Source: Acidobacteriota bacterium
GTDB lineage: Bacteria > Acidobacteriota > Terriglobia > Terriglobales > Acidobacteriaceae
Assembly (NCBI GenBank): GCA_003225055.1
Contig: QIAU01000189.1
Span: 1-42,037 of the forward strand
Direction of reading: 5' to 3'
Length of the DNA stretch: 42,037 bases
Shown here: piece by piece, positions 5,467-38,501 of the stretch
How the letters are laid out: every line of letters starts with the position of its first letter
Position numbering within the stretch: position 1 is the stretch's first letter
Translations under genes and position numbers: made by a program
The notes under the pieces: model-generated
Told to the model about the DNA's origin: nothing
The model's database searches: none
Seen by the model: the letters and a program-made list of their open reading frames with translations, nothing else

Positions 5467-5494
5467 CAAGGTCACCAATCACCGGCCCACCGGT

Positions 5495-7712: not shown

Positions 7713-7803
7713 GACTTGGAGTTTCTCATCGCATGACGAAAATTGGCGCACTCACCAGCCAGCCGCCGACAACGGCTCGAGCACGGCACTCACGGGCTGT
7801 ACA

Positions 7804-10527: not shown

Positions 10528-10565
10528 TAATCGTCCCTGACTCGAAGCCATTGTTGTGTACCCGT

Positions 10566-18790: not shown

Positions 18791-18840
18791 AAAACTCTCC
18801 TCGGGACCTTGGCGTCAGGACCGCGCTCTTGGTGAGACTG

Positions 18841-19035: not shown

Positions 19036-19081
19036 CTTGGTGTAGACCTCCTTGTGTGCAAATTCAAAGCTGGAGAAAAAC

Positions 19082-19360
19082 TTAATTCTGGGTCTCGAAA
19101 ATGGACCTGCTTGCCTGCACCCTGACATCGTCTGTCAGGGCGTGGCCCAAATTGTGAAGGAAGAACTCGTTGCGCTCACCAAGTGGGGAACAAGTTCTGG
19201 CGCTCTGTAGCACATGGCTGGCGCCTTGACCGTGCGAAAGCGCTTCCGATGACGCGACAGCCACTCCTAACAGCGGGAAAACCATCGCGAGGAAGGGGCC
19301 TCGCAATCTTTTTCTGTTCCACCGAGCCAGAGCCCTGGAGAACGGAAGCCCGCTCTTCAT
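19082..19360 (-). CDS. possible small exported protein, unknown
   Basis: A 92-codon frame starting at ATG 19360 with GGGGAG 5 nt upstream. Residues 1-20 are basic, residues about 21-37 are hydrophobic (PFLAMVFPLLGVAVA), and an SEALS segment follows that could be a signal-peptidase site. The rest has no recognisable family. It lies between the putative promoter at 19532-19560 and the DUF2934 gene. The ribosome-binding site and signal-like start argue for a gene; the unremarkable composition of the second half argues against one. Confidence 0.33.
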   Translation of the reverse strand: MKSGLPFSRALARWNRKRLRGPFLAMVFPLLGVAVASSEALSHGQGASHVLQSARTCSPLGERNEFFLHNLGHALTDDVRVQASRSIFETQN

Positions 19361-21919: not shown

Positions 21920-23197
21920 ATGCGACAAAATACATTAGTCACGAAAATTCTGGAACTTTCGCGCCAAGACCCTGCGGTTCTCCAACAGCTGGAGAGGTTC
22001 CGCCGCGCGGTCACAGTGATGTTCACTGATATCAAGGGATCCACCGAGTATTTCGAAAATTTCGGCGACATAGCCGGGCTGGCCATGGTGCACGAATGTA
22101 GCGACCTGCTGCGGACGGTGATCGAACAACAGGGCGGCCGGGTGATCAAAACTATTGGTGACGGGGTGATGGCGCTATTCGATGGCTGTGACGAGTCGGT
22201 TCAGTCGGCGGTCGCGATCCAACGGCGCTTGAAGGAGAGGAACGCGCTGCGAAAAAAAGAAGAGGAAATGCTGGTGCGCATCGGTTTGCACTACGGCTTG
22301 GGAATCGTCAAATCCGATGATGTCTTTGGGGATGTGGTGAACACGGCCTCGCGAGTTGAAAGCGTGGCTCAACCCGAACAGATCATTATTTCCGACTCTC
22401 TAAAACAGCAGCTTTCGCCATCAGCATTCAAAGTCGCGCTCCTTGGCCGTTTCCGCCTGAAAGGGAAAAGTGAGGACCGTGACCTCTACCAGGTGGTGTG
22501 GGGCGAGACAGAATCAGTCCCCCTGAAGTCGCCATACACGATGATCAGCCAGGCTGGCATCGGTTCCGCAAAGCTTCAGCAGCTTAATCGGGATGGCGCG
22601 GTGGTTTCTGAAAACCCGATTGGAAAAGATGGGCTCACGGTCGGCGGCGCGGAAGCTGAGGCCAAGTCCGATGAGAAGTCCCAAAGGGCCGAGGCGCGGT
22701 TCTCACTCGAAGACGGGCAAGCTATCGTGGAGGATATCGGCAACAAGGGCCGCATCTTCATCCGGCTGATTGCGACGTATACCCTAGAAGAAGCCGACAT
22801 AATCGCCATGGGCACGCGCCTTTTCAGGTTTATTTGTAAGCCAGATCTGGTGGAGGCGGCCACCACACTCGGGAAAACGCTGTCAGATGTCGGCAAACTG
22901 GTTAAGGAATGGCCCGCGGAGTTCGTCGGGATCAACCCGGATGGATCCGACCGGCACGAAACTTACCCGCTCCAACACGAAGAGATCACGTTTGGCCGCA
23001 CCAACGGCACGTTTACCTTCAACCAGGATCCTGTCATGAGCCGTTCGCACGCCCGCGTTTACCGTCGCGGGGAGAACTTTTTCCTCGAAGATCTTGGCAG
23101 CCGCAACGGAACCTTGGTCAGGGTGCGCGGCAAAGCTCCCCTTCCCTTCGGCGCATCCGTTCTCGTGGCCGGGCAAGTATTCCGGGTTATGCAGTAA
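21920..23197 (+). CDS. class III adenylate cyclase with FHA domains
   Basis: A 425-residue soluble signalling protein. Residues about 28-200 form a class III nucleotide cyclase: metal ligands D37 (FTDIKGST) and D81 (IGDG), adenine-specifying K77 and D134 (DDVFGD), and N141 and R145 (NTASR) at the transition state. The Lys/Asp pair predicts ATP, not GTP, as substrate. Residues about 212-315 look like a degenerate FHA fold without the SxxH motif. Residues about 345-425 form a typical FHA domain with FGRTNGT, SRSHARVY and DLGSRNGTLV, expected to bind phosphothreonine. GAGG sits only 2 nt before ATG 21920, so the start is uncertain. It lies upstream of a Ser/Thr kinase on the same strand, so phosphorylation-dependent docking of cyclase and kinase is plausible. 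Confidence 0.88.
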   Translation: MRQNTLVTKILELSRQDPAVLQQLERFRRAVTVMFTDIKGSTEYFENFGDIAGLAMVHECSDLLRTVIEQQGGRVIKTIGDGVMALFDGCDESVQSAVAIQRRLKERNALRKKEEEMLVRIGLHYGLGIVKSDDVFGDVVNTASRVESVAQPEQIIISDSLKQQLSPSAFKVALLGRFRLKGKSEDRDLYQVVWGETESVPLKSPYTMISQAGIGSAKLQQLNRDGAVVSENPIGKDGLTVGGAEAEAKSDEKSQRAEARFSLEDGQAIVEDIGNKGRIFIRLIATYTLEEADIIAMGTRLFRFICKPDLVEAATTLGKTLSDVGKLVKEWPAEFVGINPDGSDRHETYPLQHEEITFGRTNGTFTFNQDPVMSRSHARVYRRGENFFLEDLGSRNGTLVRVRGKAPLPFGASVLVAGQVFRVMQ

Positions 23198-23507
23198 GTC
23201 CCTCCACACCAGCCCCCACCCTATCTGTAGAACATTGAGTTCAAGCTCTCAAGCTCGTCAAGCTGCTTTTCGTCAAGCTTTCCTCAAGCTTTAGGCAGAG
23301 TGGTTTGGGAGGCGATTCTATGCTAATGTGCGGCCTGCAGGCGTAGGTGTGCCTGGCGCGAGGATGACCCGGGTGCGGCGCTCCCGCGATGATCTTGGCG
23401 ACGACCAAAGGTGCACCCGCTCTCCCCTGGAGCCGATCATCCAGCAACGTGCAACAGACTGCGTGCGTGGAGATGTGCTCTACTGCCTTTTTCTCTGAGC
23501 GACTGAA
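23198..23507. other. intergenic region upstream of kinase 1
   Basis: About 310 bp without a convincing gene. It contains the five-copy TCAAGCT array at 23241-23290 and further on a TATGCTAAT element near 23320 that could serve as a -10 box, but no good -35 box was seen. The last 100 bp before the kinase start lack an obvious strong ribosome-binding site. Confidence 0.4.
23241..23290 (+). repeat. five TCAAGCT direct repeats upstream of kinase 1
   Basis: Exact TCAAGCT occurs at 23241, 23249, 23258, 23273 and 23284, five copies in 50 bp with start-to-start steps of 8, 9, 15 and 11. The array ends 217 bp before the kinase start. It could bind a regulator in several copies or be slippage-derived sequence. 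Confidence 0.55.
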
Positions 23508-26500
23508 ATGCCAAAGAGCGGGCCCAAAAGGCTGGGTAAGTATGAGGTCCTCGAAGTTGTCGGCCGGGGTGGCATGGGTGTGGTCTACAAGGCGGTCGAC
23601 CCGGAAATAGGCCGGCTGGTGGGGATCAAGATGATGACCGGCAAGGTCATCAGCGATCCCGGGCACCTCAAGCGCTTTTACCGGGAAGCTCAATCGGCCG
23701 GCAAGCTCCGGCACCCGAACATCGTCACTATTTATGACCTCGGAGTCCAGGAAGCAACTCCCTACCTAGTGATGGAGTTCCTCGAGGGGGAGAGCCTGGA
23801 TGCGCTAATCCGCTGCGGTCGAGCAATTTCTTTGGAAGAAAAGCTGAACATAGTCATCCAGGCGTGCAACGCCCTGGCTTATGCACACGAGCAAGAAATC
23901 GTTCACCGCGATATCAAACCTGGGAATGTGATGCTATTGAAAGATGGCACGGTGAAACTGGTTGACTTCGGAATCGCTCGGATTGGTAGAGAACATGTCA
24001 CCCGCACCGGTCAGCTGCTGGGGAGCATACAGTACATGTCCCCGGAACAGATTCAGGATTCCCCGGTGGATTCGAGAACAGATATTTTTTCTACCGGCGT
24101 CATGTTGTACCAGTTGCTGACGTATCAACTTCCGTTCGAAGGAAAAGACGCGGGCGAGACACTGCTGAAGATCATTCACGATCCTCCCCCACCCCTAGGC
24201 AGGTTCCTGCCCGCATACCCACCGGAACTAGACGACATTATGCAACGGGTGCTGGCAAAGAATCCCGACGAGCGCTATCAGACCGCGACCGATCTTGCCT
24301 TCGATCTCTCCCATGTGCAGGAGCGTCTCAAACGCGAAAGGGTCTCCGAATATCTGGAGGCCGTGGAGTTCAGTGTCGCCGAAGGGCAGTGGGTCAAGGC
24401 GAAAGAGCAGTTGGTACAGTTGCTGAAAATTGATCGACAGAATGCGCGCGCCGGCGATCTTTTGCGCGAAGTACAACAGCAGATCCAGAAACAGCAGCGC
24501 TCCGAGCGCATCCGAGACTTGCAGTCCCAGGCTGAGCAGGCCATCGCCCGCGACCGATTGGACGAGGCTCTACGCTACCTTGATTCGGCCATCGGCCTGG
24601 ATGAGACCAATGCCCAGCTGCGTGAACTGCGTGATTCCGTCAGGGAGAAGAAGAAGCGTACCGACCAAATGTCGGAATTGCTGGCACGGGCAAAATCTGC
24701 CTTTGATACCGAGGATCTCGAAGATGCTTTGGCCACCGTAAAGCAAGCGCTTGCCGTCGATTCTGAGAGCCGAGATGCCCGGGAGCTACACGCGGTCATT
24801 GCCAAAGAATTAGCCGAGCGAACGAAGCTGAAGCAGATCCAAACTCTACTCGACGAAGCCCGGAAGCAAATATCCTCGCGCCAATTTACGGCTGCGCTCG
24901 ATTTTCTTCGCAAAGCAGAGGCGCTCGATCCCAATGCACCCGGTGTAAGTGATTTCATGGCCCTGGCCTCCACGGGACAGCAACAAGAAAGGCGCCGCAA
25001 GGAACTTGAAGAAGTCGGCGCCGAGATTGAAGAAGCTCTGAACGCCAACAACTATCGGTTGGCCTGTGCCAAAGCTGCGGACGCACTGGAGAAATTCCCC
25101 AACGAGCGCGGCCTACTTAAATTGAAGGCGATAGCCGACAAGGAGCGCGAAGCTACCGAGAAACGGATGTATGTGGAGGGTCAGATCTCGCTGGCAAGGC
25201 GGCTATTGGAAGAAAAAAAACCTGCGGAAGCCCTGCTTCCGCTCGAGCAGGCTTTAGCCAGGTATCCGACCGAATTTGTTCTGCAGTCGATGCATTCCTT
25301 GATCACGGAAACAGTCGAGCGCGAGCAGGCAGAGCAGTTCAAGGCCCAAATTATCCAGCAGGCTAAAGACGCGATTCGTCGCAAGGCCTACAGTGAAGCG
25401 ATCGAGATCCTCGAAGCTGCGCACCGGCAGACCTCCGCCAGCGAGTTTGACGACTTGCTCCAGTTCGCTCAGGAGGAAGCGGCGAGTTTTGCCGCGAGAA
25501 ACAAGATTGATGCGGCTGCTAAAGAAGCTCATCGTCTCATGTCAGCCGACGAATACGAACCGGCGATTGAACTTCTCGAAACGGTACTCAAGGAAGTTGA
25601 CGACGAGGAATTGCGCATGGTCCTGGCCGATGCACGCCGCCACCTTGAAGAGTTCAACGCGGGCCTTCAAGAGGTACTCGCTACTGCTAGGCGCTTAGTG
25701 CACACGGAACGACACGGCGAGGCAGCGAAGTTTCTGGAAGCGCAGGCGCTGCGCTACAACCAGTCCCCCGAGATCTTTCGGCTCCTGGAACAGGTAAACC
25801 AGGAACGGCGGCGGGTCCAGGCGTTTTCAACGGTCAAAGAACAGGCGCGTGAGGCGCTGGCTAACTCTGACTTCGATGTCGCCCTCGCTCTGCTGGAGAA
25901 ACACCGCGCCGAATTTGGGGATGGCCTGGACGCGCAACTCTTGCAGCGAGAAATTGACGTCAAACAAGCCGATGCCGCGCGGGCCGCGGTAGGGCAAGCG
26001 TTGCAAGATTGCCGCATCCTGCTGATTGTCCGCTGTTATCAGTCCGCACTGGATATTCTCGACCGAGTTTCCCGGGTGGCGGCCTTGGTGCCGGACATGA
26101 AACAGGCGTATGACTTCGCCCGAGCCAATGCCATGGCGGCAGTCGAGCGCGAGCACCTCAGCAATGAGCGATATGAGTTGGTGAAGCAGAGGGTGGCCGA
26201 GGCCGCCGATCAAGCTACGCTCAGCAACTCGCAGTGGGTCACCGCGCCCTCTTTGACGCCGGTTCCGAGCCCGGGGCAGGAAACCGAGCTCGCCAATGTC
26301 GCAGCGCTGGAGAGTGTTTTGGGTGAAGTGACGCTTATAGCCGAGCATTATCCCGGGGATCGGAAGATTCAATCGGTTGTAGGCGACGTAAGGCATAGGC
26401 TCACAATGCAAATCGCAGCCTTGCGGCAAGTCGATGGTGCTTGTGGAGTCGAAGGAGCAAACCATCAGACGACGGTCGAGGGCGTCGTCCATGAACCTCC

Positions 26501-28907
26501 CTCTCCAGCCGACACGGCAACCTTGCCCGCACAGGCGCTAACGGATGGGGAGGCGCGGCGGGCGTGGCCGAGGACCGAGAAGCTCCCGGCGCTGGCGGCT
26601 GCTTCTGGGCTCGAGCCCCCAATGCTTGCGACATCAGTCGCTGCGGTCAATCCAGCCGCGCCGGCCGAGTCCGAAGTGCCCCTTCCGGGAATTCCTCCGG
26701 AACGGCTGAAGCTTCGGAAAGAAGCGCAGAAGTGTCTCGCCGATGCCCAACAGGCATTTGCGAAAAGTCAATGGGAGGAGGGATCGGAACTTCTCAAGCG
26801 TGCCGATCAGATCGCGAACCACGATGACGGGATCCGCGAGCAGGCGATCGGCATAATCCTGGCCACTTCCGAATCTGCTCTCCAGACGCGCTGGGAATCA
26901 GTTGAGCCGCTTCTTGGGCTCGCGGCCGAGCTCTATCCGGAATCCCCGCTGCTGCCCGTTCTGAAAGGCAAGATTGAGAATCGCAAGCGTGAGCAGATCA
27001 CCGAGCAGTGTGTGAGGGACGCTGAGGCCGCCCAATCCTCAGGCGACCTCGAGGCTGGGTTAGCCGAACTTGAACGTGGCCTGACAGCCTATCCCAAGGC
27101 TCCGCGCCTGCTGCGGCTAAAGCAGGATATTGAGTCCCGAGTTCAGGAAGAACAACGTCACAGGAAGCACGAAGAGGATGGCGAATCTGCGGGGCAGCGT
27201 GCACCCGGCCAAACCCGACAGAACCAGCAGCAAGCCGAGACCAAAGCAGTCGAGCAGCACGATCAGGCAGAGGCAACCGGCACGCCCGTACCCGCTCAGA
27301 GTAACCCCTTCGGGAAAGAAACAAGATTTTTCCCTATAGAAGAACCCGCTCCCGCCACTCCGGACTTTTTAAAGGTCCAGCCGCCGATCGCTCCTGCTCG
27401 AGACACGGGAATCCAGCCGCGCGCTTCTGTCGCGCCCTCTCCGCTCTCGAACCCGGTGGCGCTTTTGGCCGGGGTCCTGTTGTTGTTCATTCTCGGTTAT
27501 TTCGCATGGAAAATCACCCGAACCGTCACCCCGTCCACGGTTTCGGTTCAGATCGACACGAGCCCGGAAGGAGCGTCGGTCGCGGAGTGGCGTACAGGCC
27601 AGAAATGTATTACTCCACATTGTGCTTTCCAGCTGGCACCAGGACAGTACACGGTCGAAGCCAAGTCAAAGGGATATGAGACAGTAACTCGAATCGTGTC
27701 GGTGAATGCGCGCGGATCCAACGTCATCTTGATCCAGATGCCCTCGCGTGCGACGGAGGTTACCAACAAGCCGTCAGAATCGGAGCAGCCGGCGCGTCTG
27801 ACTATCCGGGGTGCTCCGGCTGGCGCGCGCGTCTACCAGGATGGCGCGCGGATAGGACGAATCAGTCGTCAGGGAACTTTCTGGGCCGACATACCGGCCG
27901 GCGATCACCAGATCCGGGTATTAGCCAGTCACCGAGAGGCGCCTGTCGTCTTTCGCCATTTTCCAGCCGGCGGCACGGTGGAACTGCATAGGGCTGATGT
28001 TCAGTTCCCACCGATTGCGGCGAATACTCCCCCCGTGCACACCGCCGAGGAACTTGACTGGCAGAAGGTCAGGTTTGCAACCGGCCCCGCGGATGTGGAA
28101 GGCTTTCTCGAACGCTACCCAAGCGGCGCTTTTCGCTTTGAGGCGGCCGAGAAGCTGGAGGATCTGTACTGGGCAAAGGCAAGCGAGCGCCCCAGCATCA
28201 CGAGTCTTCGTGACTACCTGCACAGGTATCCCGGCGGCCGCTACTCGGACTCAGCCCAACGCGAGATCGCGAAGATCGACTTTGAAGGGATACAAAACTC
28301 GACCGACCCGGTCGCCCTGGAAGCTTTTCTGAAAACCTATCCGTCGGGCAGCTATCATGACCAAGTCAGGAGGCGATTCGACGATCTGAGCTGGGAACGC
28401 ACCGGCCGGGGCAGGGATCTCAAGAGCGTGCTCGCGTACCTGGAGGGATTCCCGAATGGCAGCCATGTCGAAGAGGCTCAGAGAGCTAGAGCCCGGCTTA
28501 CCCACGTTGTGGAACGCGACTCGGAGCCCACTCTCCGTCCCCCAGCTGCTGTGTTACCGCCGATCGATGAGCGCAAGGCTGTTCTCGGCGTGCTGGAGCT
28601 CTATCGAAAAGCTTACGAAGACAGGAATCTTCAGGACTTGAAAAAGATTTGGCCTGGCATGACGCGCCAACAGCTCCGAAGTCTGAGTGACTTCTTCCGG
28701 ACTGCAACCTCCGTGAACCTTACCTACAGCATTTTCGGCGAGCCGGAAGTCAGCGGCGACGAAGCAATCGTGAAATTGACGCAGTCGTTAACCTACGTCG
28801 TGGGCGGCAAGTCGGAGCGGCCCAAGTCCGCAACGATGATCGTGAGATTGAAAAAGCCAGGTTTGGCGCAACCAGGCACGACCTGGCAGATTGAGTCGAT
28901 CCGCTAA
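23508..28907 (+). CDS. giant membrane Ser/Thr kinase with TPR-like, PEGA, 37-residue repeat and NTF2-like domains (kinase 1)
   Basis: A 1799-residue transmembrane receptor-like kinase. Residues about 12-280 form a complete Hanks-type kinase: GRGGMG loop (19-24), K41, H133-R134-D135, D153-F-G and a SPEQ motif. The invariant Lys motif reads VGIK instead of VAIK. Residues about 285-1050 are helical TPR-like and coiled-coil repeats (pattern A-L near G-x-x-EEAL). A Pro/Ala-rich linker leads to one TM helix at about 1317-1336. Outside the membrane come two PEGA-like domains (about 1345-1417 with CITPHC, and about 1430-1495), four copies of a 37-residue repeat (YP/FPxG at 1537, 1574, 1611 and 1648) and a C-terminal NTF2/SnoaL-like domain (about 1685-1799). 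It is paralogous to kinase 2 over its whole length. The signal sensed is unknown. Confidence 0.9.
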   Translation: MPKSGPKRLGKYEVLEVVGRGGMGVVYKAVDPEIGRLVGIKMMTGKVISDPGHLKRFYREAQSAGKLRHPNIVTIYDLGVQEATPYLVMEFLEGESLDALIRCGRAISLEEKLNIVIQACNALAYAHEQEIVHRDIKPGNVMLLKDGTVKLVDFGIARIGREHVTRTGQLLGSIQYMSPEQIQDSPVDSRTDIFSTGVMLYQLLTYQLPFEGKDAGETLLKIIHDPPPPLGRFLPAYPPELDDIMQRVLAKNPDERYQTATDLAFDLSHVQERLKRERVSEYLEAVEFSVAEGQWVKAKEQLVQLLKIDRQNARAGDLLREVQQQIQKQQRSERIRDLQSQAEQAIARDRLDEALRYLDSAIGLDETNAQLRELRDSVREKKKRTDQMSELLARAKSAFDTEDLEDALATVKQALAVDSESRDARELHAVIAKELAERTKLKQIQTLLDEARKQISSRQFTAALDFLRKAEALDPNAPGVSDFMALASTGQQQERRRKELEEVGAEIEEALNANNYRLACAKAADALEKFPNERGLLKLKAIADKEREATEKRMYVEGQISLARRLLEEKKPAEALLPLEQALARYPTEFVLQSMHSLITETVEREQAEQFKAQIIQQAKDAIRRKAYSEAIEILEAAHRQTSASEFDDLLQFAQEEAASFAARNKIDAAAKEAHRLMSADEYEPAIELLETVLKEVDDEELRMVLADARRHLEEFNAGLQEVLATARRLVHTERHGEAAKFLEAQALRYNQSPEIFRLLEQVNQERRRVQAFSTVKEQAREALANSDFDVALALLEKHRAEFGDGLDAQLLQREIDVKQADAARAAVGQALQDCRILLIVRCYQSALDILDRVSRVAALVPDMKQAYDFARANAMAAVEREHLSNERYELVKQRVAEAADQATLSNSQWVTAPSLTPVPSPGQETELANVAALESVLGEVTLIAEHYPGDRKIQSVVGDVRHRLTMQIAALRQVDGACGVEGANHQTTVEGVVHEPPSPADTATLPAQALTDGEARRAWPRTEKLPALAAASGLEPPMLATSVAAVNPAAPAESEVPLPGIPPERLKLRKEAQKCLADAQQAFAKSQWEEGSELLKRADQIANHDDGIREQAIGIILATSESALQTRWESVEPLLGLAAELYPESPLLPVLKGKIENRKREQITEQCVRDAEAAQSSGDLEAGLAELERGLTAYPKAPRLLRLKQDIESRVQEEQRHRKHEEDGESAGQRAPGQTRQNQQQAETKAVEQHDQAEATGTPVPAQSNPFGKETRFFPIEEPAPATPDFLKVQPPIAPARDTGIQPRASVAPSPLSNPVALLAGVLLLFILGYFAWKITRTVTPSTVSVQIDTSPEGASVAEWRTGQKCITPHCAFQLAPGQYTVEAKSKGYETVTRIVSVNARGSNVILIQMPSRATEVTNKPSESEQPARLTIRGAPAGARVYQDGARIGRISRQGTFWADIPAGDHQIRVLASHREAPVVFRHFPAGGTVELHRADVQFPPIAANTPPVHTAEELDWQKVRFATGPADVEGFLERYPSGAFRFEAAEKLEDLYWAKASERPSITSLRDYLHRYPGGRYSDSAQREIAKIDFEGIQNSTDPVALEAFLKTYPSGSYHDQVRRRFDDLSWERTGRGRDLKSVLAYLEGFPNGSHVEEAQRARARLTHVVERDSEPTLRPPAAVLPPIDERKAVLGVLELYRKAYEDRNLQDLKKIWPGMTRQQLRSLSDFFRTATSVNLTYSIFGEPEVSGDEAIVKLTQSLTYVVGGKSERPKSATMIVRLKKPGLAQPGTTWQIESIR

Positions 28908-28959
28908 AGGCCCACAATGCCCGGAGAGAGACAGGGTGGCGCGGTCTTTTGGGTATGGA

Positions 28960-30684
28960 TTATTTGCCCTGCCGCGCAGCACGATCAGCCCAGGTATTCT
29001 GATCTAGTGTCTGGTCGGGTTGCAAGATAGTCAGACCCGGGTCAGCTCCGGCGGCGCCGGCCTGAGCCTGGCGACCTTCAGACGCCACCGTGAGGCGCTG
29101 CTCAATTAGCGTCTCGAACATGCGCCGGAGCGGTGGATGATAGGCAAACAGAGCATGAAAGGTCTGCTGATCCACGCTGAGCAGGTTCACTTTCGTGACA
29201 GTTCGCGCCGTGGCCATACGCGGATGGTCATTCACCAGAGCCATCTCGCCGAAGCATTCACCCGGTCCGACGCGGCCTACCAGCTGGACATGTTGCCCCG
29301 GACCTTCCTTCACCATTTCCACTTCACCGTCCACGACGATGTAGAGCCGATCGCCACGGTCGCCTTGGCGGAAGACGATCTCGCGTGGCTCGAAATGCTC
29401 TCGACACAAGCTCGCTCCCTTCTCGAGCTTAAGTTGGACGATATCGGGCGGCAGCACCAGGTCGAGGAACCAGTCGGTTGACACCCGAAGCTTGCGGTCG
29501 AATCCCGGCAGTTTCATCAGGTAGATCCCACGCCACAGCAGCCACGCGATAAAGCCGGAGAGCTTGAACCCGAATACCTCGGCGACGGCCGAGCGGCGTC
29601 CGAGAGCCGCGAGTTTTCCCAGGGCTTCGAAGGCAAACGGCTGCTTTGGTTCTCCGCGCAGCGATGCCACCAGGTTCTTGGCCACGCGCGCGGCTTGCCG
29701 GGTCGCGTGTTGGGCTGTTGGCGGGCAGGGCTGCCAAGTGTTGTGATCCACGACCCAAGCACAATCGCCTAACGCCCACACGCCCGGATAATCGATCACC
29801 TCCAGATGCTTGTTGACGACGATCCGTCCGCATTCTTTCTTGCAAGGCAGCTTGGCAACCAGCGGATTTGGCGCCGACGGCACGGTGCTCACCAGTGTCT
29901 TAGTAGGAATCCGCGCCCCGCCTTCCAGCAAGGCCGATTCCCCTGTGGCTCCAGCCAACCGCGTATTCAGGCGTATTTCAACTCCCCGGCGCTCGAGCAG
30001 CTTCTGCGCGAACTCGGCGAGACTTTTTTGGAGTTCGGGCAGAATTAGTGGACCGGCGTGCAACAGGATCACGTGGATCTCGGCTGGATTGATACGCCGG
30101 AAGCTGCGCGCACCCTCGCGGACGAAGTCGTTCATCTCGGCCACCGCTTCGACGCCGGAAAATCCGCCGCCCGCGACAACAAAGGTCAGCAGTCGACGCC
30201 GGAGTTCAGGGTCCGACTCCATATCGGCTTCCTCGAGCGCATGGATCAGGTGATTACGCAACACCAACGCATCGCCGAGATACTTGAACGGTAGAGCATG
30301 CTCGCCGAGCCCCGGCTGGCCAGCGAAGCTGGTAATGTTTCCGACCGCGATGATGAGATGATCGTATTCCAGCTGAGAGGGTCGTGGCCGAAAACCAGCG
30401 CTGGTCGTCACCGTCTTGTTCTTGAGATCGATGGATTCGACTTCCCGGGTATAGAGATTGGTTCTCGGGCAGAGCCGCCGGATAGGCGCGATCGTGTCCA
30501 GAATCCCGATGCTCCCTGAAATGACTTCCGGGAGCATGGGCTGGAAGACCAAGTAATTCTCTTTGCTGATGAGCCCCACTTCTACGCCAGGATCATTCTT
30601 CAGGAGCTTCTCGAGCGTGATGGCGGTATAGACGCCGCCAAAGCCTCCGCCGATGATGAGAACCTTCGTTTTCTTCTGCTGCAT
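28960..30684 (-). CDS. ndh: type II NADH dehydrogenase fused to a cyclic-nucleotide-binding domain
   Basis: A 574-residue two-part protein. Residues about 5-410 form a single-subunit NADH:quinone oxidoreductase: FAD motif IIGGGFGG at the start, NADH motif VVAGGGFSGVEAVAE, and the second FAD motif GVWALGDCAW, followed by amphipathic membrane-binding segments (FIAWLLWRGIYLMKLPG). Residues about 420-535 form a cNMP-binding domain with the phosphate-binding cassette FGEMALVNDHPRMATA, including E480 and R489, which contact cyclic-nucleotide phosphate in known proteins. AGGAG lies 7 nt before ATG 30684; an upstream in-frame start at 30705 lacks this. It follows the FHA-cNMP regulator gene by 86 bp on the same strand, in a locus that also encodes an adenylate cyclase. 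Allosteric control of respiration by cAMP is inferred. Confidence 0.88.
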   Translation of the reverse strand: MQQKKTKVLIIGGGFGGVYTAITLEKLLKNDPGVEVGLISKENYLVFQPMLPEVISGSIGILDTIAPIRRLCPRTNLYTREVESIDLKNKTVTTSAGFRPRPSQLEYDHLIIAVGNITSFAGQPGLGEHALPFKYLGDALVLRNHLIHALEEADMESDPELRRRLLTFVVAGGGFSGVEAVAEMNDFVREGARSFRRINPAEIHVILLHAGPLILPELQKSLAEFAQKLLERRGVEIRLNTRLAGATGESALLEGGARIPTKTLVSTVPSAPNPLVAKLPCKKECGRIVVNKHLEVIDYPGVWALGDCAWVVDHNTWQPCPPTAQHATRQAARVAKNLVASLRGEPKQPFAFEALGKLAALGRRSAVAEVFGFKLSGFIAWLLWRGIYLMKLPGFDRKLRVSTDWFLDLVLPPDIVQLKLEKGASLCREHFEPREIVFRQGDRGDRLYIVVDGEVEMVKEGPGQHVQLVGRVGPGECFGEMALVNDHPRMATARTVTKVNLLSVDQQTFHALFAYHPPLRRMFETLIEQRLTVASEGRQAQAGAAGADPGLTILQPDQTLDQNTWADRAARQGK

Positions 30685-30770
30685 CTGACCACTCCTGAGA
30701 GCCAACTTGGCCGAGCTCTAAAGACTGCAGCCAATGGGGAATTAAATTTTCGGCGCGGCTAACCAGATGC

Positions 30771-31835
30771 TCAGGACCACTCCGAGCCGTACTCCAAGGC
30801 TCGAGTCAAGGCCTTCGCGCTGGGAATGATGAGCTGTTTGTTCTTGCCGAGTTCGATCAGTCCTTCCTCCTGATAGCGATGTAACAGCCGGCTGACCACG
30901 TCGTGACTGGAGCCGACCATAGCCACCAGATCCGGGATGCCAAAGGTTCCGCTGATCAGACACGAACCGTCGGGCGCCATCTGGCCGTATTTTTCTGCCA
31001 ATTGATTGAGCGCTGCCAGCAGCCGGTAGGGAACCTCACGCGACGAAAGTTCGAGCATATCTGTGCTGGTCTTGCGGATGCGTTCGCAGAGAGCCTCCAG
31101 AACTTTCCACAGGACCTCGGAACGGGTGGCAACAAAATTGCGGAAATCCTTGCGCGAGATCGTAGCCAACTGGCTTGGCTCGCAGGTGGTTACAGTCGCG
31201 GAACGCGGATGTCCGTCGAGCATCGCGAATTCTCCGAAGATCTCCCCCGGTCCCAGAATATCCAGGATTTTCTCGCGACCATCCTCGGCGGCTTGTGTCA
31301 CTTTTACGGAGCCTCGGATCAGCATGTATAGAGAGTCGGATGGATCGCCTTGAAAAAAAATAGCAGCGTCGGGGCCGTACTTTTTTGCCACGACGATCTT
31401 GGTCAGTTCCTCAACGTCGGTCGGGGTTAGCTTCGAGAAGATCGAGACTCGAGCGGTTGCGCTCAGTTCCTGGAGAAGCTCGAGTTGTTCCGAGCTGGTC
31501 GGATTGAAAACGAGATAGGGGCCACCCTTGGCGCCGAACTCGACACGGTCGTTGTAATTCAGTTTCCGGCGGTCGACCTTTTCGCCGTTCACGAACGTAC
31601 CCAGGCTGCTGCCCGCGTCCAGGAGCACAAAGTCCACGCCTTCGGCCTGGATAACAGCATGGTCGCGCGAGACCCGTGCGTCCGTTACGACCAGGTCTTT
31701 ATCGGGCTTGCGCCCGATGGTGAACGGAACGTGATTGAGCGAAATGGTCCGCTGCTCCGAGCCGTTTACAAAGACCAGCTCCGGAAAAGGACCTGGGGTT
31801 GCAGATACGGTGGTAGAGGCAGTTGAAACCGACAT
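30771..31835 (-). CDS. CRP/FNR-family regulator with N-terminal FHA domain
   Basis: A 354-residue transcription factor with three domains. FHA (about residues 18-105) has FTIGRKPDKDL, VSRDHAVI and SSLGTFVNG, all phosphothreonine-contact motifs. The cNMP-binding domain (about 130-245) has the cassette FGEFAMLDGHPRSATV with E202 and R211. The C-terminal winged helix-turn-helix (about 265-350) has VPYRLLAALNQLAEKYG and HDVVSRLLHRYQEEGLIEL, typical of CRP. ATG 31835 has AAGGAGG 5 nt upstream. The frame is open to 32141, but that part translates the upstream 13-bp repeats and is rejected. It is divergent from kinase 2 and lies upstream of the NADH dehydrogenase-cNMP gene. It could integrate kinase phosphorylation (FHA) and cAMP. 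Confidence 0.9.
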   Translation of the reverse strand: MSVSTASTTVSATPGPFPELVFVNGSEQRTISLNHVPFTIGRKPDKDLVVTDARVSRDHAVIQAEGVDFVLLDAGSSLGTFVNGEKVDRRKLNYNDRVEFGAKGGPYLVFNPTSSEQLELLQELSATARVSIFSKLTPTDVEELTKIVVAKKYGPDAAIFFQGDPSDSLYMLIRGSVKVTQAAEDGREKILDILGPGEIFGEFAMLDGHPRSATVTTCEPSQLATISRKDFRNFVATRSEVLWKVLEALCERIRKTSTDMLELSSREVPYRLLAALNQLAEKYGQMAPDGSCLISGTFGIPDLVAMVGSSHDVVSRLLHRYQEEGLIELGKNKQLIIPSAKALTRALEYGSEWS

Positions 31836-32234
31836 CGCGGCCTCCTTAGAGATTGGCCGAGAAGGATAGCACCATTGTCTAAACTTACCAAGCTGCCTTG
31901 CTGCCTTGCTGGACTGCCTTGCTGGACCACTTGCCTTGCTGGACACTGCCTTGCTGGACTGCGCCGGACTGCTTCTGGACTGCTTGGCTGGACTCCCATG
32001 TTCTTTACACCTCCCGGCAACGGTATCTAGTTGCTCGCGAGCGGTGTTCGTAGCACAATAGGCCAGATTATGCCAAGGCGGATAACTCCCCAGGCGTCTT
32101 GGGCATTCTGACGAGATGAGCGCGCCCGTTCTTTTGGACAAGCTTCGCGAGTTCCTTGGGTTTTCTCAGCGCGTCTAGGAGAACGCCACTCGTCTTTGTC
32201 TTAGTGGCTTCGTGGCTTCGGATCCCGGCCCGTT
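31836..32234. other. divergent intergenic region between the FHA-CRP regulator and kinase 2
   Basis: About 400 bp without a gene. It contains the 100-bp repeat array (31895-31994). A weak -35/-10 pair may exist on the minus strand (TTGGCA near 32073), but the -10 is poor. No TGTGA-N6-TCACA CRP-type site was found. The kinase 2 start lacks a clear ribosome-binding site. Confidence 0.45.
31895..31994. repeat. degenerate tandem array of the 13-mer GCCTTGCTGGACT
   Basis: Eight head-to-tail units, some truncated or with small insertions: GCCTTGCT, then two copies at 31903 and 31948 that match the 13-mer exactly, copies at 31916 and 31933 extended by a few bases, and shorter variants (GCGCCGGACT, GCTTCTGGACT, GCTTGGCTGGACT). 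The array lies 60 bp upstream of the regulator start and 240 bp upstream of kinase 2. Unlike CRISPR there are no unique spacers. It may be a multi-site operator or a slippage product. Confidence 0.75.
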
Positions 32235-35200
32235 ATGGCCTCGAAAATACCGGCGAAGATTGGCAAGTACAACGTGACTGGCATCCTCGGTCGCGGCGGC
32301 ATGGGTGTTGTTTACAAGGCTACCGATCCCTTCCTCGACCGTCTCGTCGCGATCAAGATGATGACAAGCGGCTACGCTGATAACCCCGATCTGCTCAAAC
32401 GTTTCTTTCGCGAAGCCCAGTCCACCGGTAGCCTGCAACATCCCAATATTGTCACAGTCTATGAGCTGGGAGATCACGCTGGAAACCCGTACTTGGTCAT
32501 GGAGTTTCTGGAAGGAGAAAGCCTCGATTCGATTATCTCGTCCCATAAGTTGCTAACTCTGTTGGAAAAAATCAGTTTCGTCATCGAGGTTTGCCAAGGC
32601 TTGGGCTATGCACACCAACGCGGCATCGTGCATCGCGATATCAAGCCGGGCAACATCATGGTTTCCAAGGATGGCAACGTTAAGATCGTCGACTTTGGCA
32701 TCGCCCATTTAGGAGACAAGAACGTAACCCGCACCGGGCAGATCATGGGAAGTATCAGCTACATGGCGCCGGAGCAGCTAAATGGTAACCCAGTCGATCC
32801 TCGCACGGATATCTTCGCCACCGGGGTTGTCCTATATCAGCTGATCACTTATACCGCTCCTTTTGACGGCGACAACACCGCCTCAACCCTTTTGAAGATC
32901 CTGCATGAGCCCCCGCCACCCCTCAAAAATTTTCTGTCTGTCTACCCGCCGGCGCTGGACGCGATCCTACTCAAAGCCCTGGCCAAGAATCGCGAAGAGC
33001 GCTACTTCTCCGCCGATGATTTTGCGCTTGACCTCGTGCAATTACAGGGACAACTGAAACACGAACTCGTCAGCAAGCAACTCGAGGAAGCCGCCCTGCT
33101 TATTGAAAAAGCGGATCTCTATAAGGCCAGGGATCAACTGCTTCAGGTATTGAAGATCGATCGTCAGAGTACACAGGCCAATCTTCTTCTGCGCGAAGTA
33201 CAGCAGCGGATTCAAAGAGAGGAGATCAGCGAGCAAGTGCGGCAGGTCCGTGCCCAAGCGGAAGAGGCCTTTGCTCAGGAGCAATTCGAAGTTGCACTCG
33301 GGCACGTGGAACGTGCTTTGGCTTTAGATCGCGGCAATGCCGGACTACAGCAACTGCGTGAAGCGATTGATGCAGCCCGGTCGCGAGCCCGCAAATTGCA
33401 GGAAATCGTGAAGCGGGTCGAGTCTGCCCATCAAGAAGGAGATTTGGACTATGCCAAGCAGGCGGTCGAAGAGGCATTGAACTTGGCTCCCGACCATGCT
33501 CACGTCCGCGCGCTTCACCGCACCATCCAACGCGAATGGGAGGAGCATTCGCGCCAGCGGCAAGTAGAGAACTTCCTGGATCAAGCCCGGCGCGAGATCT
33601 CCCGCCGAAACTTCACTTCGGCGCTCCAGATCCTGGATCAAGCCGTGTCCCTGGACCCCGACGCTCCGCAGATTAAGGTGTTGATCGAATCGGCCGCGGC
33701 GGGCCGGGAACTAGAACGGCGCCGCCGCGAACTGGAGGCTGCAAGCCGACAAATCGAGGAAGCGCTGAACCGTGACGATTACCTCGTCGCCTGCCGCACA
33801 GCGGAGCAGGCTCTGGAACGTTTTCCGCAGGAACGCACCCTGCTCAAGCTAAAAAGCCTGGCCGAGAAGCAGCGCCAGGTTGCAGAACGCAAGCAGTTTG
33901 TCGATGAGCAACTCGCTAATGCCCACGCCTTGCTGGAGCAAGGCCGCAGCGAAGAACTGCTCGGAGTTCTCGAGGCTGCGTTGGCGAAAACAGGTCTCGA
34001 GCCGCGACTGGAATCCCTGCTCCTGATCGTGCGCGAGAATGTGCAGCGCGAACGCACCGAGCGCCGCAAAGCAGAGTATCTCCGAAGAGCCAAGGAGGCC
34101 CTCCGAGAGAAGGCCTACGATCAAGCCATGGAGGTCCTGCAGGCCGCTCGCACAGAGCTGAACGACGCCTCAGAAATCCTGGACCTGTTGCAGTTCGCCA
34201 AAGAAGAAGCCATCACCGAGAAACGTCGGCAGACGCTGGAAGCAGCCGCCCGCGAGGCGAATGACTTCATTGCCCGGCAGGAATACGAACCAGCCATCGA
34301 GCTGCTGGAAACCACGCTCGAAGAGGTGCCGGATGAGGAGTTGCGTATCATTCTCGCCGAAGCCCGCCGGACCTCGATTGAATACCACAAAAAGTTAGAG
34401 ACCACGATCAGCACGGCAGAAAAACTTTTAAAAGCTCGCAAGGCAGGCGATGCTCTCCGGCTTTTGGACTCGCACACCCCTCTTTTCGGGCGCAGTCCCG
34501 CTTTTCAGAAGCTGTTCGAAACCGTACGCGTCGAGGCGGAGCGTCTGCGCAAAATCGATGAGGTCATCGGGCGTGCCGCGCAGGCACTCGAGAAACAGGA
34601 CTACGCTGCTGCCAGGAGTTTGCTCGAGGAAGGCCGCCGACTCCATGGTACGACTCCAGCACTCGAACAGCATTTCGAGGAAGTTGCCAAAAAACAATCC
34701 TTAGCCGCCGGACAGGTCATCAAGAAGAACCTCGGCGACGCTCAAATCCTGGTGATGGCCAGTCAGTATCAGGCGGCACTGGACAAGCTGGTATCGGCTT
34801 CTGATCTGTTGGCTTTGGTTTCACCGGCGCTGAAGTCTGAATATGAGGCCCTGCAACAACACGCTTCCGGGGGCCTTGCGCGCCAGCGAATTGCTCAGAT
34901 TGAGCGCTACCTTAATGCGGGAGAGTTCAACCAGGCGGATGAATTACTGCGACAGAGTTTGGTGCAGTTTCCCGCAGATCGCGATTTGCTGGCTCTGGAA
35001 AATGTGCTGCGCGATGAGACCAAGCAGAGATTAGAAGCCCAACAAACGATGGCGGCAGCCCAGGAGTTACTCAATAAGGGCAAATGGGAAGCTGGCGCAC
35101 AGCTGCTGAAGCAGGCATTCTCCAATGCACAACGCACGCCGGCCGTTCGGGACCAGGTGCTCACCCAGTTCGTGCGCGCCGCGGAAGCCGCTCTGGAGAC

Positions 35201-38200
35201 TGACTGGCACGTTTCCGATGCCCTCCTGCGGCAATTGGCGGAACTACAGCCGGACTACACGCAGCCGCCGAGTTTGCAAAACAAGATCAGCCGGTGCAAG
35301 CGCCAGGAATCAGTGAAACAGTGCCTGGAACAAACCAAACGATTCCAGTCCGCAACTGATCTCCAGGGAGCCCTTCGGGAAGTTGTGCGCGGGATTGCCG
35401 AACATCGCGACGAACCTACGTTACTCGAGCTGCGCAAGGAGATCCAGGAGCAGATTTACCGAGAGGAGGAAAGGATCCGGGACGAACGCGCCCGGCAAGA
35501 GAAGGGAGCTTTCTTGCAAAGTGTCGCAGAGCGCGCCCAGCGCGAGCCGGGGCTCGACAAGCGCATTCGGATTCTGGAAGAAGCGCTCCGAAAACACCCG
35601 AAGGACCTGCAGCTCCAGCCGCTTTTGATGGAAGCTCGTGAATTGTTGGACCGGGTCACGGCGATCGTCAAGGAAGCCAGCGCTCTGGAAAAAGCGCAGA
35701 AATACACAGAAGCCGTCCAACAATGGGACGTTCTTCGTAGCCTCCATGCTCCGTATCCTGATTTGGACAGTAATATTGCGCGCCTTACGAAGCTCAACGA
35801 GCAGGCGCGAGCCGCCGCGCAGGCTGCATGGGCTCAGAGGGTCCAGACGGCTCTGGACTCTGCCGACTATGACAGCACTGCCGATCTGCTTACCCAGGCG
35901 AAGCTGGAATTCCCCGAAAGCCGCGAACTGTCAGAGCTGAATGAGAAGCTTCAGGACGCCCTGAAGCTCCGAGCCAAGGCGCAAAAGATCATTGCCGACG
36001 GCCACGCCGCCTTGAGCAAGCGGCAGTGGCGAAAGGCTGCCGACTGCCTAACACGGGCCTGTGACGTTGCCGGCGCGGACCCGGTGGTCCGGGAAGAGGT
36101 GCTGGGTGAACTGCTGGAGGGTTGTCAAGCGGCAATCGACGTGGATTGGCAGGCCGCCGAGATGCTTCTGGCTCAGGCTGCTGGACAGCAGCCTGCCTCT
36201 CCCCTCCTCGCGCCGCTGCGGAACCGGATCCATAACCAAAAGCGTGAGCAGGACGTTGAGCGACACCTCACAACGGCTGTGCGCTCTCAATCGGGTGGTG
36301 ATCTCGAAGGCGCGGTCCGCGAACTGGACCGAGGCCTCTCTCAGTATCCGGACGAACCCCGGCTCGCCCAGGTTAAGAAGGATGTTGAGAGCCGGCTGCG
36401 GCAGCTGGTGGAAGAGCGGCAAGGGAAACGCGAGGCTCAAGAGGAACGCGCCCGCCAGTCGGCATTGGAGCGTCAGCGGCAGATCGAGCTGAAGCGGGAG
36501 CAGGAGCTCGAACGAGAAAAGGCAAGAGCAGCGGACGAGGAGCGGAAACTTGAGCGTGGCCGCCAACGCGAAACAAAGCGCGAACAAGAACGCGCACGGC
36601 AAGAAGAGCAGCGAAAGCTGGAGGAAGCGGCCGAAAAGAAACGCCGCTTGGAGGCAGAAAAGCAAGCCGACGAAGCGTGCCCGGAAGCCGGAGGACTCCG
36701 GGCTGCGCAAGAGCCGCGCCCCCGCCCGGAAGAGTTGAGACGAAGCAGTTTTCCGGGAACAAGCGCGCCAGAAGGCCGGCTCCCCTCAGATGCTCCGGCT
36801 GCCGCTGCTTCTTCTCCCCCAAGGATTTCAGCTTCGGTAGGGGTTGAGACCGACCCCGCACTGACGCGAGATCAGATCTCTGCAAGCTTAAGTAGTGCAC
36901 CGACGGATTCGGCAATCGTTACGACGCCGTTGCCGGAAGAGACAAGACCCCTGCAAGCGGTCCAGGAATATGTGTCCAAGAATGCTAGGACGCTGGTCAT
37001 CGGTTTTAGCTTGCTGGTTGTCGCTCTGCTCGTTGTGAGGCTAGTTAGACCGCAGATAGTACCGGTCCAGATTACGACCATTCCCCCAGGCGCAACCATT
37101 CGGATTAGGAAGACAAATCAGGAATGTACTACGCCGAATTGCAAACTGAAGTTAAAGGGCGGGAACTATGAAATTGAAGCTCGACTTACGGGTTACGAAC
37201 CAAAGATACAAACAATTATCGTGGACGCCAAAGGTCCTAACTCGACGACGATCGCACTCTCAGCTCCTCTACCCCCGACCCCGACACCTATTCCCTCAAA
37301 GCCTGCCCAGATTGTGATTCGGGGCTGGAGCCGGGATGCGGAAGTGTTGCTGGACGGCAATTCAGCCGGCACGGTGGGAACGAGCGGGACTTTTTCTACG
37401 ACCATAGCGGCCGGCAAGCACGAAATCAAAGTAGTGGACAAGACAGGAAAATCGGGTACAATGCGCAGATACTTCGCGTCCGGCGAAAGCGCGGCTCTGG
37501 CGACAAAGGATTTCGTAGTCGTTAACCCACCCCCTCCCCCGCCTCCGCCGCTCAGTCCCGAGGAAAAAGATTGGCTCCAGGTCAAAGACTCTGGAAGCAT
37601 TGAAGACTTAGCGAAGTTCCGGGCTCGCTATCCTGACGGCGCTCATCATGGCGAAGTGGAAGCCAGGCTCGACAACTTGTACTGGAACCGGGCGAAGCAG
37701 GCAAACAGTACCGAGGAATATACGCGGTACCTGAACGAGAATCCCCAGGGGACCCATCGTGAAGAAGCAAAGGCTGGCCTCGACAATCTCGCTTGGAGCA
37801 ATGCCGAGCACAGCAACACCATTCAAGCGTTTCAAGATTACTTGCGGCAGTATCGCGAAGGAACGCACGCTGGAGCAGCAAGGGAAATGATTGCGGAACT
37901 GCGGTTCCAAAAAGCACTGAACTCGGAAGATGAGGCGTTGTCGGACGCCTTTCTCAGAGATTATCCGTCGGGTGATCGTCATGTCCAGATCTACAGACAC
38001 CTGGATGACGTGGTTTGGCAGAAAACCAATCAGAATGATGCAGTTGGTCTGCGATCGTATTCCGCAAGATTCCCCGATGGCAGACATCTGAGCGAGGCAC
38101 GCGCCGACATAAACAAACTCACCTCGACTCCGCCATCAAAGCCATCGAAGCCAGTCGTTGACGAGAAAGCTGCTGTGCTCGAGGTGATCGAGCAATACAA

Positions 38201-38501
38201 CCGGGCATACAACGATAGGAATATCGAAGAGCTCAGAAATATCTGGCCCAGCATGGACAGGAAACGGATCGTCAACCAGCGTGATTTCTTTAAGACGGCG
38301 ACGAGCGTGAAGTCAACTTACAGTATTGACGAGGAGGTGCAGATAACTGGTGATGAGGCAACCGTGAAATTCACGCAAGTTGTGGATTATGTAGCGCAAG
38401 GCAGGCACGCAAAACTGCCCCCCGGGACGAGGGTAGTGAGGCTGCGACGGGTCCCGGGTACACCAGGAGGCTGGTACATAGATTCAATGTCAGGGAACTG
38501 A
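32235..38501 (+). CDS. giant membrane Ser/Thr kinase with TPR-like, PEGA, 37-residue repeat and NTF2-like domains (kinase 2)
   Basis: A 2088-residue paralogue of kinase 1. The Hanks kinase (about residues 12-280) has GRGGMG (19-24), VAIK with K41, HRDIKPGN, VDFGIA and MAPEQ. A very long helical region (about 285-1475) of TPR-like units ends in a highly charged Glu/Arg/Lys coiled coil (about 1385-1475). A Pro/Ser-rich linker precedes one TM helix at about 1587-1606. The outer part has two PEGA-like domains (the first with CTTPNC, C1631 and C1636), a poly-Pro stretch, five copies of the 37-residue repeat (anchors at 1799, 1836, 1873, 1910 and 1946) and an NTF2-like end. The outer-membrane barrel gene follows after 23 bp. 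It differs from kinase 1 mainly by a longer helical region and one extra repeat. Confidence 0.9.
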   Translation: MASKIPAKIGKYNVTGILGRGGMGVVYKATDPFLDRLVAIKMMTSGYADNPDLLKRFFREAQSTGSLQHPNIVTVYELGDHAGNPYLVMEFLEGESLDSIISSHKLLTLLEKISFVIEVCQGLGYAHQRGIVHRDIKPGNIMVSKDGNVKIVDFGIAHLGDKNVTRTGQIMGSISYMAPEQLNGNPVDPRTDIFATGVVLYQLITYTAPFDGDNTASTLLKILHEPPPPLKNFLSVYPPALDAILLKALAKNREERYFSADDFALDLVQLQGQLKHELVSKQLEEAALLIEKADLYKARDQLLQVLKIDRQSTQANLLLREVQQRIQREEISEQVRQVRAQAEEAFAQEQFEVALGHVERALALDRGNAGLQQLREAIDAARSRARKLQEIVKRVESAHQEGDLDYAKQAVEEALNLAPDHAHVRALHRTIQREWEEHSRQRQVENFLDQARREISRRNFTSALQILDQAVSLDPDAPQIKVLIESAAAGRELERRRRELEAASRQIEEALNRDDYLVACRTAEQALERFPQERTLLKLKSLAEKQRQVAERKQFVDEQLANAHALLEQGRSEELLGVLEAALAKTGLEPRLESLLLIVRENVQRERTERRKAEYLRRAKEALREKAYDQAMEVLQAARTELNDASEILDLLQFAKEEAITEKRRQTLEAAAREANDFIARQEYEPAIELLETTLEEVPDEELRIILAEARRTSIEYHKKLETTISTAEKLLKARKAGDALRLLDSHTPLFGRSPAFQKLFETVRVEAERLRKIDEVIGRAAQALEKQDYAAARSLLEEGRRLHGTTPALEQHFEEVAKKQSLAAGQVIKKNLGDAQILVMASQYQAALDKLVSASDLLALVSPALKSEYEALQQHASGGLARQRIAQIERYLNAGEFNQADELLRQSLVQFPADRDLLALENVLRDETKQRLEAQQTMAAAQELLNKGKWEAGAQLLKQAFSNAQRTPAVRDQVLTQFVRAAEAALETDWHVSDALLRQLAELQPDYTQPPSLQNKISRCKRQESVKQCLEQTKRFQSATDLQGALREVVRGIAEHRDEPTLLELRKEIQEQIYREEERIRDERARQEKGAFLQSVAERAQREPGLDKRIRILEEALRKHPKDLQLQPLLMEARELLDRVTAIVKEASALEKAQKYTEAVQQWDVLRSLHAPYPDLDSNIARLTKLNEQARAAAQAAWAQRVQTALDSADYDSTADLLTQAKLEFPESRELSELNEKLQDALKLRAKAQKIIADGHAALSKRQWRKAADCLTRACDVAGADPVVREEVLGELLEGCQAAIDVDWQAAEMLLAQAAGQQPASPLLAPLRNRIHNQKREQDVERHLTTAVRSQSGGDLEGAVRELDRGLSQYPDEPRLAQVKKDVESRLRQLVEERQGKREAQEERARQSALERQRQIELKREQELEREKARAADEERKLERGRQRETKREQERARQEEQRKLEEAAEKKRRLEAEKQADEACPEAGGLRAAQEPRPRPEELRRSSFPGTSAPEGRLPSDAPAAAASSPPRISASVGVETDPALTRDQISASLSSAPTDSAIVTTPLPEETRPLQAVQEYVSKNARTLVIGFSLLVVALLVVRLVRPQIVPVQITTIPPGATIRIRKTNQECTTPNCKLKLKGGNYEIEARLTGYEPKIQTIIVDAKGPNSTTIALSAPLPPTPTPIPSKPAQIVIRGWSRDAEVLLDGNSAGTVGTSGTFSTTIAAGKHEIKVVDKTGKSGTMRRYFASGESAALATKDFVVVNPPPPPPPPLSPEEKDWLQVKDSGSIEDLAKFRARYPDGAHHGEVEARLDNLYWNRAKQANSTEEYTRYLNENPQGTHREEAKAGLDNLAWSNAEHSNTIQAFQDYLRQYREGTHAGAAREMIAELRFQKALNSEDEALSDAFLRDYPSGDRHVQIYRHLDDVVWQKTNQNDAVGLRSYSARFPDGRHLSEARADINKLTSTPPSKPSKPVVDEKAAVLEVIEQYNRAYNDRNIEELRNIWPSMDRKRIVNQRDFFKTATSVKSTYSIDEEVQITGDEATVKFTQVVDYVAQGRHAKLPPGTRVVRLRRVPGTPGGWYIDSMSGN

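Follow-up and report, generated by a model that had tools for sequence, protein, structure and literature searches.

Can one bacterial locus bring cyclic AMP (cAMP) and Ser/Thr phosphorylation to bear on both transcription and the entry of electrons into respiration? The question is raised by five signalling genes at positions 21920-38501 of contig QIAU01000189.1 from an uncultured Acidobacteriota bacterium (assembly GCA_003225055.1), whose whole 42,037 nt were analysed and are called the window below. An earlier note on this DNA had read the five as a single circuit, and Pfam matches confirmed each of its gene assignments:

21920..23197, plus strand: predicted class III adenylate cyclase with FHA; catalytic domain 22007-22474, degenerate FHA at about 22565-22834, canonical FHA 22943-23128
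23508..28907, plus strand: giant Ser/Thr kinase 1 (1799 amino acids); kinase domain 23541-24281, TPR-like region, hydrophobic segment 27438-27518, PEGA 27540-27713
28960..30705, minus strand: type II NAD(P)H:quinone oxidoreductase (NDH-2) with a C-terminal cyclic nucleotide-binding (cNMP) domain; cNMP 29143-29400, His216 at 30058-30060
30771..31838 (open reading frame as listed to 32141), minus strand: CRP-type factor; FHA 31533-31721, cNMP 31125-31385, helix-turn-helix (HTH) 30801-30935
32235..38501, plus strand: giant Ser/Thr kinase 2 (2088 amino acids); kinase domain 32268-33002, TPR-like region, hydrophobic segment 36978-37073, PEGA 37065-37232

The reading that we favor, with a probability of about 0.5, is that cAMP acts as a gate on the entry of electrons from sugar oxidation and that the kinases tune the cyclase and the CRP-type factor through FHA. 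Pentose-phosphate enzymes encoded to the left of these genes would make NADH and/or NADPH, and NDH-2 would hand the electrons of this pathway to quinone. cAMP from the neighbouring cyclase would bind the cNMP domain of NDH-2 and switch the enzyme on or off; the same cAMP would bind the CRP-type factor and adjust transcription, probably of its own cluster. The two membrane kinases may sense something extracellular and phosphorylate Thr residues, which FHA domains in the cyclase and in the CRP-type factor would read, so that kinase state would set cAMP output as well as transcription. The analysis shows the domains and their intact signature residues, a single class III cyclase, a gene order found again in a second genus, and recurrent links of NDH-2 proteins fused to cNMP (NDH2-cNMP) with cyclases and of the NDH-2 subfamily with sugar genes; cAMP binding, gating and its sign, the kinase and promoter targets and the coenzyme are inferred.

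The domain assignments are far beyond chance, as judged by strong E-values and by low nonsynonymous (dN) against near-saturated synonymous (dS) divergence between two genera. Pfam E-values were 3e-24 for Guanylate_cyc and 1.6e-11 for FHA (residues 357-401) in the cyclase, 2e-53 and 6e-52 for Pkinase in kinases 1 and 2, 1e-40 for Pyr_redox_2, 5e-8 for NDH2_C and 9.4e-25 for cNMP in NDH-2, and 1.6e-16 for FHA, 8.3e-27 for cNMP and 1.2e-5 for HTH_Crp_2 (25.6 bits, just below the cut-off of 27) in the CRP-type factor.

Six residues of the cyclase (D37, K77, D81, D134, N141 and R145), which we take to have catalytic and adenine-site roles, are identical in all ten aligned homologues. Judged by this set (two metal Asp, a Lys/Asp adenine pair, Asn and Arg), the protein is a putative class III adenylate cyclase, and the six residues point to ATP as its probable substrate. 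In a search confined to PF00211, it was the single match in the genome of the window, and the genome G460 of another genus likewise had one; the search works, since 5 of 14 control genomes gave matches. The plural "FHA domains" of the earlier note stands in part: Pfam recognizes one canonical domain, and residues ~216-305 look like a second, degenerate one by hhalign profile comparison (98.8% against the C-terminal FHA of the same protein, 94.8% against other FHA domains). The C-terminal FHA has the GR, SxxH and NG residues, with R375 replaced by Gly in 2 of 10 homologues.

Both kinases contain the catalytic Lys, HRD and DFG of Hanks-type Ser/Thr kinases, with RD-kinase motifs, and each has one hydrophobic segment with PEGA adjoining. 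They are 46% identical across the first 889 amino acids and also have C-terminal parts in common, which suggests that they arose by duplication. For the CRP-type factor, the true start is probably the ATG near 31835 rather than 32141, because similarity to G460 begins there. Its cNMP domain with the Glu/Arg cassette, together with the Crp HTH, places it in the cAMP-CRP family by predicted architecture. The phosphate-binding Glu and Arg are retained in the cNMP domains of both NDH-2 (E487 and R496) and the CRP-type factor, in the window and in G460.

The NDH-2 fold was confirmed by Pyr_redox_2, NDH2_C and an AlphaFold2 model built from nine sequences (mean pLDDT 75.9), whose best PDB matches by Foldseek were NDH-2s; NAD(P)H:quinone activity is predicted. 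The quinone-site AQ motif is present (PPTAQHATRQ, Q332). Linkers 362-381 and 426-430 are of low confidence, and a gating mechanism of the cNMP domain cannot be read from the model.

The earlier note had staked its proposal on neighbours conserved together in related genomes, and this held in G460, where a 21.7-kb contig has the same nine genes in the same order and orientation, from a transaldolase-phosphoglucose isomerase fusion (TalPgi) through transketolase (Tkt), HMA-like and DoxX-like genes, cyclase, kinase 1, NDH2-cNMP and the FHA-CRP factor to kinase 2, with 63-87% protein identity. Since dN per domain is only 0.10-0.33 while dS ranges from 1.15 to saturated, this order has outlived most silent sites. 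The conserved block extends past 21920-38501, taking in first the DoxX- and HMA-like genes and then pentose-phosphate genes, so that the limits drawn in the earlier note were too narrow. The genes on this side of the window, assigned by Pfam unless stated otherwise, are:

20398..21615, minus strand: DoxX-like membrane protein (405 amino acids)
19660..20382, minus strand: HMA-like Cys-rich protein (240 amino acids); weak HMA match, under the cut-off
16703..18790, minus strand: Tkt
13622..16519, minus strand: TalPgi
11304..13139, minus strand: glucose-6-phosphate dehydrogenase (Zwf)
7804..10551, minus strand: MGH1-like glycoside hydrolase, found near several H-type NDH-2 genes elsewhere
6663-7751, minus strand: K+ channel with TrkA domains, within the pentose-phosphate cluster
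5495..6526, minus strand: short 6-phosphogluconate dehydrogenase (Gnd) with Asp30; nearest named PDB structure NAD+-type
4750..5478, minus strand: 6-phosphogluconolactonase-like protein (Glucosamine_iso)
4201..4689, minus strand: ribose-5-phosphate isomerase B (LacAB_rpiB; RpiB)

Read leftward, the minus-strand order is DoxX, HMA, Tkt, TalPgi, Zwf, a HAD hydrolase, the MGH1-like glycoside hydrolase, the K+ channel, Gnd, the 6-phosphogluconolactonase-like gene, RpiB and a MauG-like gene. The G460 contig also has Gnd (68%) and Zwf (55%, cut by the contig end), with Gnd flanked by Zwf and TalPgi, a placement not seen in the window. The G460 transketolase (L162:5335-7441) matches in two frames, possibly owing to an assembly frameshift.

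Comparison with other relatives revealed that the locus joins two modules: module A, the FHA-cyclase with a kinase, and module B, NDH2-cNMP, the CRP-type factor, DoxX, HMA and the sugar genes. Full-length FHA-cyclases were detected in 7 of 60 other relatives, at eight loci, and a kinase adjoins five of these: a window-type kinase directly after the cyclase on the same strand in G002, G026 and G019, and a different Ser/Thr kinase directly upstream in G004 and at the second copy in G024. No kinase lies beside the cyclase in G025 or at the first copy in G024, and the G016 contig ends just upstream. In G002, G026 and G019 a secreted-looking, weakly TPR-like protein follows the kinase; the window has no such protein there. 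The fetched flanks of the module A loci contained no NDH2, CRP, DoxX or pentose-phosphate match, the exception being a K+-channel homologue in G025. This homologue (L063), beside the FHA-cyclase, is 60% identical to the K+ channel of the window.

With regard to module B, 14 of 396 genomes of the phylum, including that of the window, have an NDH-2 match that extends into the cNMP domain. The genome G172 has a row of a glycoside hydrolase, a glycogen debranching enzyme, NDH2-cNMP, CRP (42%), DoxX (55%) and an HMA-like gene (28%, no Pfam match). The 405-amino acid DoxX is present in three of the 396 (G000, G172 and G393), which are also the three with the CRP part, and the HMA-like gene adjoins DoxX in G172, G393 and G460. 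In G130, of the same family, NDH2-cNMP is located beside Tkt, RpiB, TalPgi, Gnd, Zwf and a glycoside hydrolase and next to another cNMP protein, and an FHA-cyclase is on a separate contig. This makes the link of NDH2-cNMP to sugar genes older than its link to kinases.

The FHA-CRP fusion has a narrower distribution. No other genome among 61 relatives has a full-length homologue, and among 300 genomes of the family only G460 has one (80% identical); none was found in the other genome of the G460 genus, which is 69% complete. The CRPs of G172 (42% identity) and G393 lack FHA. Fusion of FHA to CRP is confined to the two genomes in which modules A and B meet and kinases flank the factor. This FHA resembles that of the family-wide FHA-GAF-SpoIIE proteins, which are a plausible donor. 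E. coli-type CRP sites were rejected as evidence of self-regulation: TGTGA-N6-TCACA gave 12 matches in the window against 12.9 expected, which speaks against that part of the circuit. When the two intergenic regions between divergent genes were aligned with G460, no clear palindrome emerged.

To follow NDH2-cNMP beyond the phylum, 84,980 species genomes were scanned, and the best 80 of 460 loci were examined. Among these 80, it was found in Ignavibacteriae, Planctomycetes, Verrucomicrobia, Chlamydiae, Chloroflexi, Rokubacteria, Cyanobacteria-related Melainabacteria, Nitrospira and Proteobacteria (phyla by record title); 24 of the 80 are fused by aligned residues, and 19 of the 24 proteins keep both Glu and Arg of the phosphate-binding cassette. 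NDH2-cNMP recurs with the same signalling parts, differently arranged. A HAMP-cyclase reading frame ends 18 bases before it in Rokubacteria (L176); a HAMP-cyclase (L168), a CHASE2-cyclase (L170) and, with a multihaem cytochrome between, another cyclase (L177) are also found near it, and G274 has NDH2-cNMP, DoxX and a cyclase. In Herpetosiphonaceae (Chloroflexi, L175) STK-FHA, cNMP-FHA and NDH2-cNMP-FHA (L175:9947-12088) follow one another, STK being a Ser/Thr kinase; an ankyrin-STK is directly downstream of NDH2-cNMP in G320 and G398. The cyclase of L177 looks FHA-like by eye and was not counted (no Pfam call; hhalign 26.9%, control stretch 0.2%). At L107:9097-11130, NDH2-cNMP has an added CBS domain and is followed by an ankyrin-repeat Ser/Thr kinase; caspase (Peptidase_C14)-TPR proteins adjoin it in L170 and L021. 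The NDH2-cNMP contig of L172, whose record title, Bordetella parapertussis, looks wrong, is the same as G054:C55, from an unrelated genome of the same class.

A cyclase gene was present within 11 kb of 7 of 29 fused NDH-2 loci, in differing architectures and with the window and G460 among the seven, compared with 1 of 96 unfused loci. Fusion was scored by aligned residues in one set (24/80) and by BLAST in another (33/138), two criteria that give slightly different results; from the BLAST-based set L172 was dropped as the same contig as that of G054, and loci with <8 kb of flank were set aside. Sugar genes were found near 12 of 37 window-like NDH-2 loci; L025 counts as fused in this set and as unfused in the 138-locus set. 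Glycoside hydrolase, glycogen debranching enzyme or pentose-phosphate genes within 11 kb accompany 26 of 85 non-acidic NDH-2 loci and none of 38 acidic ones. The sugar-gene query proteins came from the window, so distant sugar genes may be missed, at acidic and non-acidic loci alike.

Several observations weigh against a single circuit. Elsewhere the two modules are found separately; only in two genomes, both of a single family, were they seen together. A genome of the same genus as the window (G001) has neither a full-length FHA-cyclase nor a fused NDH-2 at the thresholds used, and G393 has CRP-DoxX-HMA at a contig edge with no NDH2-cNMP at E<=1e-75. Kinase 1 of G460 stops shortly after the hydrophobic segment, without a PEGA match. 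The FHA of the CRP-type factor keeps GR and SRxH and lacks the canonical Asn of the NGT motif (Leu in the window, Ser in G460). No cyclase is nearby in 22 of the 29 fused loci. Both association counts are naive, a tree-corrected test leaving 3-4 independent pairs and being uninformative, and six of the eight unfused sugar-positive loci in the 37-locus set come from one genus.

In an alternative reading, two independent modules are simply neighbours: NDH2-cNMP and CRP would serve sugar respiration and answer to cAMP as a shared cellular signal, and the cyclase and kinase would belong to an unrelated envelope or stress pathway. The cyclase-kinase pairs of G002, G026 and G019, which have no sugar, NDH2 or CRP match in their fetched flanks, fit this view, as do the parts of module B in G172, G393 and G130 with no kinase or FHA-cyclase beside them. 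We nevertheless regard it as less likely than the circuit, given that the order is kept in two genera despite near-saturated synonymous sites, that the class III cyclase is single, that CRP gained FHA only in the joined state and that analogous joins occur in other phyla. The proposal of one circuit is thus supported by the G460 order, the sole PF00211 match and the independent pairing of NDH2-cNMP with cyclases, Ser/Thr kinases or FHA in distant phyla, and is weakened by the separability of its modules. It is still less probable that the cNMP domain has no gating role in NDH-2 and instead serves docking or dimerisation or binds another ligand, e.g., cGMP. Five of the 24 fused proteins have lost Glu or Arg, a point against gating, and extra domains occur at the same end (CBS in L107, FHA in L175); on the other side stand the intact pair in the window, in G460 and in the 19 others, the cyclases that recur beside the fusion and the six cyclase residues pointing to ATP.

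The coenzyme allows a sharper form of the circuit, overlapping with it, in which NDH-2 is an NADPH:quinone oxidoreductase that, under cAMP control, would channel NADPH from the pentose-phosphate pathway into respiration. According to an excerpt of PMC5220320, E198 of C. thermarum NDH-2 is the reason given for its poor use of NADPH, Glu or Asp occupies this position in most NDH-2s, and a cited Glu-to-Gln change in A. tumefaciens NDH-2 shifts specificity to NADPH. The aligned residue in the window is His216, so the Glu/Asp of NADH-specific NDH-2s is absent. His also occupies this position in most of the window-like subfamily, fused or not, with Gln in L104 and L025 and Ala in the divergent L109; ordinary NDH-2s of relatives have Glu, or Asp in one case. 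All 20 ordinary control loci lack a sugar gene, and those aligned have Glu or Asp. His216 would permit NADPH, yet the Gnd and Zwf of the cluster look NAD+-type: Gnd carries Asp30 (Asn in the Gnd of G460), and 8ihe, the closest structure for which a coenzyme is given, is NAD(+)-dependent; Zwf, like its G460 and G130 counterparts and unlike that of G019, has no Arg at the NADP-type position of the alignment. We presume that this Arg position reports on the coenzyme. Moreover, Glu is kept in 3 of the 24 fused proteins, and the switch described in the PMC5220320 excerpt is to Gln, not His. An NADPH-specific enzyme, considered as the main reading, was therefore reduced to an alternative that is possible but less likely than not. 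An excerpt of PMC11302666 describes a proven NADPH:quinone oxidoreductase of this family, S. aureus NDH-2B, and does not mention a cNMP domain; for the window enzyme NADPH is a candidate coenzyme.

Compared with known systems, the window enzyme shares its fold, FAD/NAD motifs, AQ motif and C-terminal membrane-binding region with the top Foldseek matches (C. thermarum 4nwz, mycobacterial 9mqy and yeast Ndi1) and differs from them in the added cNMP domain and in His for Glu/Asp at the residue that selects the coenzyme. Among the matches listed for PDB chains in the NDH-2 alignment and Foldseek, none was an NDH-2 with a cNMP domain. In the CC-licensed PMC literature we found nothing on such an NDH-2 or on CRP/FHA/cNMP in Acidobacteria, and recognized no description of the present system. 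NDB1, the external NADPH dehydrogenase of plant mitochondria, is reportedly regulated by Ca2+, control being exerted via an EF-hand. Both it and the window enzyme are NDH-2s linked to a second messenger (predicted for the window), NDB1 having Ca2+ instead of a cNMP domain and residing in a eukaryotic organelle. In Actinobacteria, PknG is said to control 2-oxoglutarate dehydrogenase through OdhI, an FHA protein; this pair also combines a TPR-bearing Ser/Thr kinase with an FHA protein acting on central metabolism, but has no cAMP, NDH-2 or CRP. E. coli cAMP-CRP has a cNMP domain with the Glu/Arg cassette and an HTH; the window factor differs in its N-terminal FHA, its recognition helix (SHDVVSR, not SRETVGR) and the lack of an excess of TGTGA sites.

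Bacterial cAMP is known mainly as a transcription signal, and the large membrane kinases found in these bacteria have few known functions. If the circuit is real, cAMP would act directly on electron entry via an NDH-2 whose gene lies close to that of the sole class III cyclase detected in the genome, the kinases would have a concrete target, and there would be a reason for the fusion of FHA to cyclases, CRPs and NDH-2s. More tentatively, NDH2-cNMP proteins might be widespread second-messenger-gated respiratory dehydrogenases, a bacterial counterpart of the Ca2+-regulated plant NADPH dehydrogenases, here wired to Ser/Thr kinases, FHA and pentose-phosphate genes in such a way that a single cyclase, unique in the genome, would set the entry of sugar electrons at the level of both enzyme and transcription, possibly draining NADPH.

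The window has two further reading frames of note. Immediately after kinase 2 comes one (38525-39994, plus strand) for a 489-amino acid protein whose N-terminus is signal-like and for which Pfam gave no match. A short frame of 95 amino acids upstream of transketolase (18841-19128, minus strand) is perhaps a small gene, its DNA being 74% conserved in G460 (18840-18999).

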